DNA of 64,000 bases from Halobacteriales archaeon SW_5_70_135 (GTDB lineage Archaea > Halobacteriota > Halobacteria > Halobacteriales > SW-7-71-33), in NCBI GenBank assembly GCA_003022865.1, contig PXSK01000021.1:1620-65619 (forward strand). Reading direction: 5' to 3'. Made by a program: the position numbers and the translations under genes. Numbering within the stretch: position 1 is the stretch's first letter; each line of letters begins with the position of its first letter. Positions 5,178 to 27,141 of this stretch are shown here, piece after piece. The notes below the pieces were generated by a model. The model did no database searches and was not told where the DNA came from. It saw only the letters and a program-made list of their open reading frames with translations.

Positions 5178-5963
5178 GATCCGCTGACTCCAGTGACTCC
5201 GGGTTTTCTGCTACACTACTGGAGACACTCATTGTATCAGCTACGAGGGTCGACTCTCGTCGATCGGCCGTCACAGGAGAAGTCTGTAATTGATGAGAGC
5301 CCTCTGTCGACGCGTCGATTCTGTTCCCCGCTCGGGGTGACAGGGCAACAATGCCGGAGGAAGGTTCTTCCGCCAGTCGTGATCGGAACTGTGTGGTGCT
5401 CGTTTCCTCGGCCGGACATGCCTGCACAGAGACCGGCTGCGTGTCTATCATGAACTTTTTTCCCTTCTAGTTTCCTTGTAATTCAAGCGCGACGCTGAAC
5501 ACTCAGTACTCGATCAGTTTGTCAGTCCCTTACTGTCGCAGGAGGCTGGTTCACGGCTGTCTCGGACCGTACGATGAATTGTTGTAACAACTCGATACTG
5601 CTCTCGACGCGTTCCCACGTCCCGGTAACGGTGTCTCCGGGGCGCTCACGCTCCCCCTCATCCAGTTAAGTCTCCTGCTGAGAGGAGCGAAAAAGTCGCC
5701 CGCTGTAGAAAACCCAACCTGTATATCATATATAGATCGTATAGTCATATTTGATACTGCCTACTCATCGAGAGGGTCGTACTAAATCGGGGAGCGAGGC
5801 GACCGTAGGCTCAGGTGTCCTGTGCCGGGATCCGATCGCCTGACTAAGAATACGGACTGAGTTGATTTGTCGTTTATGTACGCGAGCGGATCCTCCACCA
5901 GCTCGTTGAAGTGGTATTCAGTTGCGTCTGGCAATCCTATCACTCTCGAATACCAAACAACGA

Positions 5964-6570: not shown

Positions 6571-6841
6571 TGTCCATGTACTCCATCGTCGCTGATTACC
6601 GGTATCGTGACTCGGACTGTTCCCGAAACTCACCGAAAGTTCAAACTCTAATTCTCATCTAACGATCACCTGTTCCGGTCCCAGTGTTCGGTAAGAATCT
6701 GAGCAATTGAAAATGAGCGGTACACCACTGCTGCAAGTGAAACTGACCGGGGTTCAGTAACGGTACCGGTATATCTTCACTTACAAAAGTGGTATGTAGC
6801 TCCCACGGACCAGTGTCGGACCGATTACCGCCTGAAGAGAT

Positions 6842-6989
6842 ACACCCACCACTGTTTCACCGATTTAGCTGTCGACTGGAGGAATCCAGGGAGACGGGTC
6901 TATATCAAAGGAGGCATCGTCGACTCACGGGTCTCTTCCGAGTCGGGAGGGCGAGCTCAGACAGATCTGCGAGACACCCACCACTGTTT
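6842..6989. repeat. Direct repeat pair acacccaccactgttt (6842-6857 and 6974-6989)
   Basis: 16-bp identical copies 132 bp apart, each followed within about 15 bp by gatttag. Confidence 0.7.
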
Positions 6990-7409
6990 TCAGGAATTGA
7001 TTTAGTCGGAGAGACGTCACGCCTCAGTCGTAGGCGGATGCGTAACTCGAAACGGGGAGTCGATCGACACTTAGATTTTTGAAAGTCGAGGGTAGCGATC
7101 TCACGAGACCAGAGACCCACACTCTGGTAGTCGGTCGGTTCGTCTCACCGTAACGAACGACTACGGGACCCCGACCACTATCTTTTAATAGCGAGAGAAT
7201 CCCGCCGTTTACACCGGGCGTGAATCGCGTAAGTCCGGTGCCACAGTCCAGCCCGAATCGCCCGGGCCGGAACCCCAACGCTTAGTATCGCCCGTGCCGA
7301 CAATTCACACACGGGTTTCGCCGACTCCTGCCGCGTGGGAACGGTGGGAGTCGGGCCGTCAACCACCCATGGCGACGGTGTTCCGCGAGCCCGGTCAAAA
7401 GGCGTGACC

Positions 7410-7650
7410 GGAGCCGGCACAGGTGCCGCGAGGCACGACCTGTGGGGTGAGAGCCTGCCGCTGAACCCGGCGGGCGATGACATCCCACGGGATGGGAGCC
7501 CCCGTGACAGGGCCACAGGACGCTCCCGAGCGAGGGTCGAAACCCGCCCCGCCGACCTCGGGAGAGCCAGTCCTGAAACCGACCGGCAGCCGGCCGGGTT
7601 CCCCCTGTGTGGGGGAAGCCGCGCCGTTTACGGCACGGAGGATGTCACTT
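7410..7650 (+). ncRNA. Candidate structured RNA, possibly an omegaRNA/right-end fossil of an IS1341-type TnpB element
   Basis: Series of strong helices: 7418-7444 (cacagg..cctgtg capped by tgcc-gcga-ggca), 7481-7494 (catccc-ac-gggatg), nested 7516-7521/7570-7575, 7523-7530/7557-7564 and 7534-7545 (gggt-cgaa-accc), 7597-7620, 7619-7638; ends with hairpin plus gaggatgtcac, resembling haloarchaeal TnpB right ends. Confidence 0.45.
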
Positions 7651-7773
7651 CAGCAGTTCGCCCAAGCCAGGGGGCCGGGACAAGATCAGTTCGAGGTGCG
7701 TGAAGACGCGCTTCCCGGCTGGTCCCGAGAGGCGGTGAAGTACTAGTAAAAAGACGCCAGCCCTGAGGTCAGC

Positions 7774-8957: not shown

Positions 8958-8999
8958 GGACGGCGACCGGACCTGCCGCGGCTCACGAGGACTGAGGAG

Positions 9000-9263
9000 T
9001 GCGCCGGCCGGGATTCGAACCGAAGCCGGACGGTCGCCCTCGCTTCGCTCTGGCGCTGCGACTGGCAGGCTTCGGTCCCGGACCGCGCACGCTCCGCTCG
9101 GGTGTCCGTTCGTGGAGAGTGCGCCGGCCGGGATTCGAACCACGTGGAGACGGTCGGCCTCGCTCCACTCGGCCGCTGCGTCTCCTCTCGTTCAGTTCCC
9201 TCGTCGCGTACCTGCGGCTCGCGGTACTGCTCGCCGCAGGATGCGCCGGCCGGGATTCGAACC
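9000..9263. repeat. Tandem copies of the tRNA-Gly 3' end (att-like)
   Basis: 22-bp tgcgccggccgggattcgaacc at 9000-9021, 9120-9141 and inside the intact tRNA at 9242-9263; spacing 120 and 122 bp. Confidence 0.9.
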
Positions 9264-25884: not shown

Positions 25885-27141
25885 GTGGCAGACGACTACG
25901 TGCATCGGACGGCAATCACTCGTCTTGAGGTTACTGACGAGCAACGCGACCTCCTTGAAAAGACTATTTCCGAATGGAAGCGTGGTTGCCAAATCGCCAC
26001 AGACATCGCGTGGGGTACGTGCAACGCGAAAAGCGACGTACAGCCCCTCGCCTACGACAATGTGCGCGAACACACCGACCTCGGGAGTCAACACGCGGTT
26101 CTCGCCACCCACCAAGCCGCTCAGGCCATCATTGGTTGTATCGAACGTCGGTCGAACGGCAAGGAGGTCAGTAAGCCGGCCTTCACCGCACCCACGGTGA
26201 CGTACGACGCCCGGACGATGACGCTGTTCGATGATGATACGGTGTCTCTTTCCACCACGGAGAGCCGTGTCCGGTGTTCGCTTGCTCTGCCCGACGCCGA
26301 CGATGGCTACCAGCGGCAGTATCTCGACCCCGACGAGTGGAGCGTCACAGAAAGTACGCTCACCGCCCGTGACGGCAACTACTTCTTACACATCGGCTTT
26401 CGCCGACTCAAGACCGATACCGAGAGAAACACCGCCGAGGACGGGACGGTTCTCGGGGTTGACCTCGGTATCGAAAACCTCGCCGTCACCAGCACAGCCC
26501 GTTTCATCAACGGGCGAGAGTTAACTCACACACTCCGCGAGTTCGAGAAAGTGCGGGCCGGCCTCCAGCAGACCGGCACCCGAAGTGCCCACCGAACCCT
26601 TGAACAGTCGAGTGGTCGGGAACGTCGCTACGTCCGCGACGTACTCCACCGGGCGTCGAACGCCATCGTAAATGAAGCACTCCGGTACGACTGCGACATA
26701 ATCGCGTTCGAGGACCTGACGCACATCCGCGAGCGAACTGGCGCGTCGTGGGGGCATCGGTGGGCGTTCCGAACGCTGTACGAACAGGTGGAGTACAAAG
26801 CCGAAGCGGTTGGAATTGCGGTGAAGCAAGTCGGTTCTGCGTACACGTCGAAGCGATGTGCCGAGTGTGGCTTCACGGCAGACGAGAATCGCCCGACTCG
26901 CACTGACTTCCGGTGTCAGAAGTGCGGGGTGGAAGCAAACACGGACTACAACGCGGCGAAAAACATCGGTCTGCGGTATGTCCGCCGGGGTCAACAGTCG
27001 TCTCGGCGGACGGGCAACAGTCAACTTGCCCTAAAGTCCGGAACAGTGACGCCGAGTGGCGGATTTACCGCCCACCCAGACGGGTTCGAAGCCGAGTTCA
27101 TGGACAAGCCCCACCCTCCACGAGCGAACCCCTCCGGGTGA
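25885..27141 (+). CDS. tnpB: IS1341-type TnpB, RNA-guided endonuclease (IS200/IS605 family)
   Basis: GVDLGIENLAVT, AFEDLTHIRE, CAECGFTADENRPTRTDFRCQKCGVEANTDYNAAKNI; RuvC D/E/D and four zinc-finger Cys present. Confidence 0.95.
   Translation: MADDYVHRTAITRLEVTDEQRDLLEKTISEWKRGCQIATDIAWGTCNAKSDVQPLAYDNVREHTDLGSQHAVLATHQAAQAIIGCIERRSNGKEVSKPAFTAPTVTYDARTMTLFDDDTVSLSTTESRVRCSLALPDADDGYQRQYLDPDEWSVTESTLTARDGNYFLHIGFRRLKTDTERNTAEDGTVLGVDLGIENLAVTSTARFINGRELTHTLREFEKVRAGLQQTGTRSAHRTLEQSSGRERRYVRDVLHRASNAIVNEALRYDCDIIAFEDLTHIRERTGASWGHRWAFRTLYEQVEYKAEAVGIAVKQVGSAYTSKRCAECGFTADENRPTRTDFRCQKCGVEANTDYNAAKNIGLRYVRRGQQSSRRTGNSQLALKSGTVTPSGGFTAHPDGFEAEFMDKPHPPRANPSG

Follow-up and report, generated by a model that had tools for sequence, protein, structure and literature searches.

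We report here that positions 7183-7648 of the window, by which we mean the whole stretch of 64,000 nucleotides that was analysed, hold a 466-bp TnpB-less IS200/IS605 element, with the structured RNA region 7410-7650 as its right half. We have little doubt that this is a non-autonomous IS200/IS605 element (a PATE) of the ISH12-related haloarchaeal group, and the best overall explanation, which we consider likely, is that of a PATE whose right half encodes a plus-strand TnpB-type guide RNA (omegaRNA/sotRNA). The element has both ends, the unit is mobile in relatives, the fold and its pseudoknot covary, neither tnpA nor tnpB lies inside, and the RNA region is kin to the 3' ends of tnpB genes.

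Limits and ends of the element

The element and its ends are made up as follows.

7183-7648, plus strand: whole element, classed as a PATE of the ISH12-related IS200/IS605 group; its ends align with those of relatives, the unit is fixed by near-identical relatives whose flanks are unrelated, and no transposase gene lies between the ends.
7178-7182, plus strand: CTATC, a target/TAM-like pentamer abutting the left end; CTATC or a near variant stands before the left end of about 30 relatives and is itself preceded by unrelated sequence.
7201-7218, plus strand: left-end palindrome, degenerate in the window copy, which differs from the consensus hairpin by two mismatches (-6.0 versus -14.1 kcal/mol in an intact relative).
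7219-7422, plus strand: PATE core, common to the H. marina, H. pallidirubidus and H. lacusprofundi PATEs and not to tnpB elements (70-84% identity in full-length alignments).
7619-7638, plus strand: right-end palindrome (arms 7619-7626/7631-7638) with one C-A mismatch in the window copy, drawn from alignment with relatives, covariation and folding energy.
7649-7668, plus strand: candidate guide (TTCAGCAGTTCGCCCAAGCC) in the host flank; beyond GTCAC the copies have unrelated sequences, and the putative guide role follows that of TnpB systems.

The right end closes at GTCAC (7648), beyond which the sequences of relatives are unrelated in the right-end alignment. Because the left and right limits are both sharp, and because the PATEs of pR1SE2, pR1SE and the virus HRTV-DL1 share about 98% identity along the element but have unrelated flanks, we take 7183-7648 as the PATE unit. 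Both near-terminal palindromes align with those of tnpB elements and ISH12, and the right one, which an earlier note on this DNA had recognized as a terminal hairpin, is slightly weakened in folding energy in the window copy. At 466 bp the element is too short to code for a transposase; of tnpA and tnpB only a relic of the TnpB C-terminus remains between the ends, and no tnpB gene adjoins, in agreement with the earlier observation that no intact TnpB motif lies upstream.

The window copy has probably lost its mobility, since the left palindrome is damaged. The empty site is predicted to read ...GACCACTATC/TTCAGCAGTT..., and these joined flanks are unmatched among the 59 genomes outside the element's own genome. 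A search of that same genome for the TAM plus guide returned, besides the locus itself, only a site with three mismatches.

Two observations concern the surrounding DNA. A 23-bp 3' end of tRNA-Gly is present in three copies (8999-9021, 9119-9141 and 9241-9263, the last in the gene itself) that resemble the attachment-site repeats of integrated elements, and an unannotated segment at 6722-7005 has 72% DNA identity to a Haloplanus plasmid and contains the repeated ACCCACCACTGTTT.

Relatives with and without tnpB

A DNA search found homologues in 37 of 59 genomes, the source genome being one of the 59. The matches form two blocks, LE and RE (window 7177-7238 and 7401-7649). The distance from one to the other is about 340-540 bp in elements that lack tnpB, and about 1.4-1.9 kb in those with an intervening tnpB, or tnpA and tnpB. 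The blastn comparison with haloarchaeal tnpB 3' regions that the earlier note had proposed matches 7410-7650 to the tnpB 3' ends of ISH12-type elements, and the closest autonomous relatives are tnpA-tnpB elements of this type. By a motif test, a TnpB Zn ribbon lies directly upstream in 18 of the 28 scaffold loci of relatives with enough upstream sequence, and the family is therefore mostly TnpB-linked, with the window copy in a TnpB-less minority. Several haloarchaeal genera, and virus HRTV-DL1 as well, have related PATEs with the same core and right half. Such TnpB-less relatives, with the fold kept, run counter to the suggestion that the window copy is a simple fossil of tnpB loss.

The closest full-length relative (84%) is on a Halorientalis marina plasmid (L031, 2906-3440); it has lost the right terminus, including the pseudoknot partner, and its left palindrome has an insertion. 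The source genome has, on contig 18 near 5671-5724 (L099 1476-1527, complement), a left end fused straight to a right end, with a GTCAC end that differs by one base; it resembles the 52-bp 'terminal-only' elements known from Haloquadratum (PMC3119063).

A conserved plus-strand fold

Region 7410-7650 has a folding energy of -126.2 kcal/mol (z = -3.35), better than expected by chance and equalled by one of 200 shuffles. Energy z-scores were dropped as evidence of strand because the fold of the complementary strand is just as good (z = -3.27). Comparison of 31 related sequences favours the plus strand, with G-U pairs exceeding A-C mismatches (72 to 25). The fold has the following features.

7423-7436, plus strand: GNRA-type hairpin (core 7423-7427/7432-7436) on the 5' side of the scaffold; stem and loop are kept in PATE relatives (92.5% of cells).
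7439-7491, plus strand: scaffold arm 1, helices 7439-7449/7481-7491 and 7453-7459/7469-7475, with two-sided changes in 12 of 15 pairs.
7498-7513, plus strand: second conserved hairpin, whose loop 7504-7509 (GUGACA) forms a pseudoknot; 100% of cells are paired and three of four pairs covary.
7517-7574, plus strand: scaffold arm 2, nested helices 7517-7521/7570-7574 and 7523-7530/7557-7564, with covariation in the 31-sequence and PATE-only alignments.
7583-7616, plus strand: two short helices, 7583-7587/7593-7597 and 7600-7604/7612-7616, paired in 92-95% of PATE cells, with mostly one-sided changes.
7643-7648, plus strand: UGUCAC right terminus, pairing with 7504-7509; 97.8% of cells are paired and two pairs have two-sided changes.

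The alignment comprises 31 right halves, both TnpB-linked and TnpB-less, with the structure fixed for counting. The plus-strand structure is paired in 94.9% of its cells, and two-sided changes occur in 30 of the 48 pairs (222 cells, where shuffles give 65.5 and slid controls no more than 49); this compensatory change bears out the earlier reading of a structured RNA. The window copy forms 46 of the 48 consensus pairs and scores 211 bits with the covariance model, to whose training set it belongs. When the alignment is confined to PATEs (11 sequences), there are 74 two-sided cells, compared with 23.4 after shuffling and no more than 12 in slid controls, and several PATE stems keep their helix though the TnpB C-terminal motif is no longer encoded there. 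This PATE-only covariation and these helices argue against a pure fossil for the lineage, although recombination with tnpB elements could import such changes.

The helices that had been read from the letters alone correspond in part to this fold. The core of a GCGA-capped hairpin at 7418-7444 recurs in PATEs with its GNRA-type loop and stem, but its extension 7418-7423/7439-7444 (CACAGG/CCTGTG) is not kept by relatives, competes with a better supported helix, and was rejected. A 6-bp palindrome at about 7481-7494 is present in the sequence, but relatives do not conserve it and its bases covary instead in helix 7439-7449/7481-7491, and it was discarded as an RNA element. Both outer helices of a nested arm hold as those of scaffold arm 2, its apical GGGT-CGAA-ACCC being weakly supported (75% of cells), and a bulged stem near 7597-7620 corresponds to helix 7600-7604/7612-7616. 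The earlier note mentions neither the pseudoknot nor the strongly covarying hairpin 7453-7459/7469-7475, nor does it have the left end of the transposon (7178-7218).

A pseudoknot from a loop to the right terminus and a right-end hairpin have been described for H. salinarum omegaRNAs (PMC12558985). The window RNA has both, together with homology to the RNA at the tnpB 3' end, and the earlier reading of a TnpB-like right end and omegaRNA is borne out by the ISH12-type matches, the covarying TnpB-type pseudoknot and the TnpB relic described below. The Rfam sotRNA models RF02656 and RF02657 do not match the region even at E up to 5.

An ISH12-like patch in scaffold arm 1

About 56 nt of the otherwise PATE-like RNA have a different affinity.

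7434-7489, plus strand: ISH12-like patch and TnpB C-terminus relic (HDLWGESLPLNPAGDDIPRDG), delimited by the switch in identity between ISH12 and PATEs and by tblastn (E = 1e-12).

In segment 7432-7498 the identity to ISH12 is 94% and that to PATE relatives 59-67%, whereas both sides show the reverse. Within 7434-7489 nearly every informative site agrees with ISH12, and the flanking parts agree with PATE relatives; the patch still reads as a TnpB C-terminus. The simplest reading, from the few sequences at hand, is recombination with an ISH12-type tnpB 3' end in the window lineage. A retained ancestral segment appears less likely, because the close kin L031 and L002 have the PATE version there.

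A probable relation to HgcC RNA

The Rfam check proposed for 7410-7650 gave no family at gathering score, and the window yielded only two tRNAs. Below threshold, HgcC (RF00062) matches 7532-7659 with 29.4 bits and E = 2.5e-4, against a gathering cut-off of 50 bits, and the match covers only the 3' half of the RNA. At least 15 of 54 haloarchaeal HgcC-model matches follow a same-strand TnpB Zn ribbon at a distance of 42-192 nt, and transposase genes of Thermococcus kodakarensis contain three HgcC RNAs (PMC4247193); for these reasons HgcC and omegaRNA are probably related, though this need not hold for every HgcC locus. Our literature search found no paper naming both HgcC and TnpB.

The broader proposition of a TnpB link for every HgcC RNA did not hold up: at 54 hyperthermophile sites that have an exact HgcC 3' motif and 700 nt or more of upstream sequence, a home-made, loosened motif found no Zn ribbon. 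The exact motif, GCCCTTTAGGGCGGGGAGGAGGTCAG, occurs 81 times in archaeal contigs L117-L196, mostly of hyperthermophiles, with no same-strand upstream TnpB Zn ribbon found, and in 19 of these loci scanned with Rfam there were two full HgcC matches above cut-off. These loci may be TnpB-less right ends too.

Discussion

Preservation of the fold in the absence of a nuclease gene suggests that the element borrows TnpB made elsewhere. By analogy with its family, the RNA would be transcribed from the plus strand and bound in trans by TnpB made elsewhere in the cell, with the flank from 7649 onward serving as guide. The TnpB-RNA complex would cut CTATC-plus-guide sites vacated by the element, and repair from a sister copy would then restore the element at the cut site; TnpA acting in trans may once have moved it. 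We regard this in-trans TnpB mechanism as evenly poised for the lineage, and rate it lower for the window copy today. A more specific and tentative proposal is that PATEs of this group are guide-RNA-only parasites kept by selection, having no protein gene of their own, with an omegaRNA that would borrow ISH12-type TnpB and so protect their insertion sites, compatibility perhaps being maintained by swaps of scaffold modules such as the 56-nt patch.

The source genome (43 contigs, 1.77 Mb, 63% complete) has 10 TnpB Zn-ribbon loci, but in this 63% neither TnpA nor a closely cognate TnpB was found, the latter because the other scaffolds of the genome, several of which adjoin tnpB genes, score only 24-45 bits against 211 for the window copy. 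The window itself contains an intact-looking gene for a 418-aa TnpB (25885-27141, plus strand), which we assign to another TnpB group because its 3' end fails to match the scaffold model.

The damaged left palindrome, together with these missing partners, is what would be expected if element and RNA were now functionless, the fold having come down from a tnpB ancestor or been brought in by recombination, a source of sequence whose feasibility the ISH12-like patch illustrates. We consider such a dead fossil possible, though somewhat doubtful: the window copy retains nearly all consensus pairs, and TnpB-less elements covary even where a stem has ceased to encode the TnpB motif. It is unlikely that the RNA is instead regulatory and acts without TnpB cleavage, for example by titrating TnpB or by base pairing with tnpB mRNA. 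High expression of the homologous PATE in a virus-infected host (PMC10544981) and the circular forms of H. salinarum omegaRNAs (PMC12558985) would suit such a role, but a guide RNA requires just such a pseudoknot, and an intact right terminus with a variable flank next to it. An orphan or independent structured RNA lacking TnpB kinship would accord with the Rfam result and the missing tnpB neighbour, but it is refuted by homology to tnpB 3' ends, the common right end and pseudoknot, and the TnpB relic, the RNA instead being half of a complete left-to-right-end element.

Although a PATE of the ISH12-related group is an element type already known, it is noteworthy that the fold is kept in the absence of tnpB and that the scaffold has an ISH12-like patch. 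The guide-RNA reading joins three subjects handled separately in the papers found: PATEs of haloarchaea, guide RNAs of TnpB, and the HgcC RNA family. If the guide RNA of TnpB-less PATEs still works, retention driven by TnpB need not be cis-encoded, and non-autonomous elements could ride on it.

Comparison with known systems

The PATEs of Haloquadratum, which are transposase-free, have IS605-like near-terminal palindromes and are too short for a transposase, can be likened to the window element by description, in the available part of which no guide-RNA content was found (PMC3119063). With haloarchaeal omegaRNA/sotRNA (PMC12558985; RF02656, RF02657) the window RNA has the pseudoknot and right-end hairpin in common, as its autonomous relatives have the tnpB 3' overlap, but unlike those RNAs it does not lie within tnpB. 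ISH12/ISH1.8 (Halobacterium, phage phiH) begins alike at the left, shares the right end, and is 94% identical in scaffold arm 1; it differs in having tnpA and tnpB, in lacking the PATE core and in its scaffold arm 2. The annotated right limit of ISH12 in phage phiH falls about 11 nt short of GTCAC, which we take as an approximate annotation.

Also close is the 489-bp PATE of pR1SE, HRTV-DL1 and Halorubrum lacusprofundi (PMC10544981), which has the same ends and RNA fold and a similar length, likewise has no transposase gene, and is 70% identical to the window copy over the full length and about 78% over the right half. Its 3' end is highly expressed during infection, in a direction given as reverse in a paper whose methods name the library kit without a statement of strand-specificity (PMC10544981). 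In the pR1SE/HRTV-DL1 copy the palindromes are intact and expression is reported; the window copy differs by the ISH12-like patch within arm 1 and by the damage to its left palindrome.
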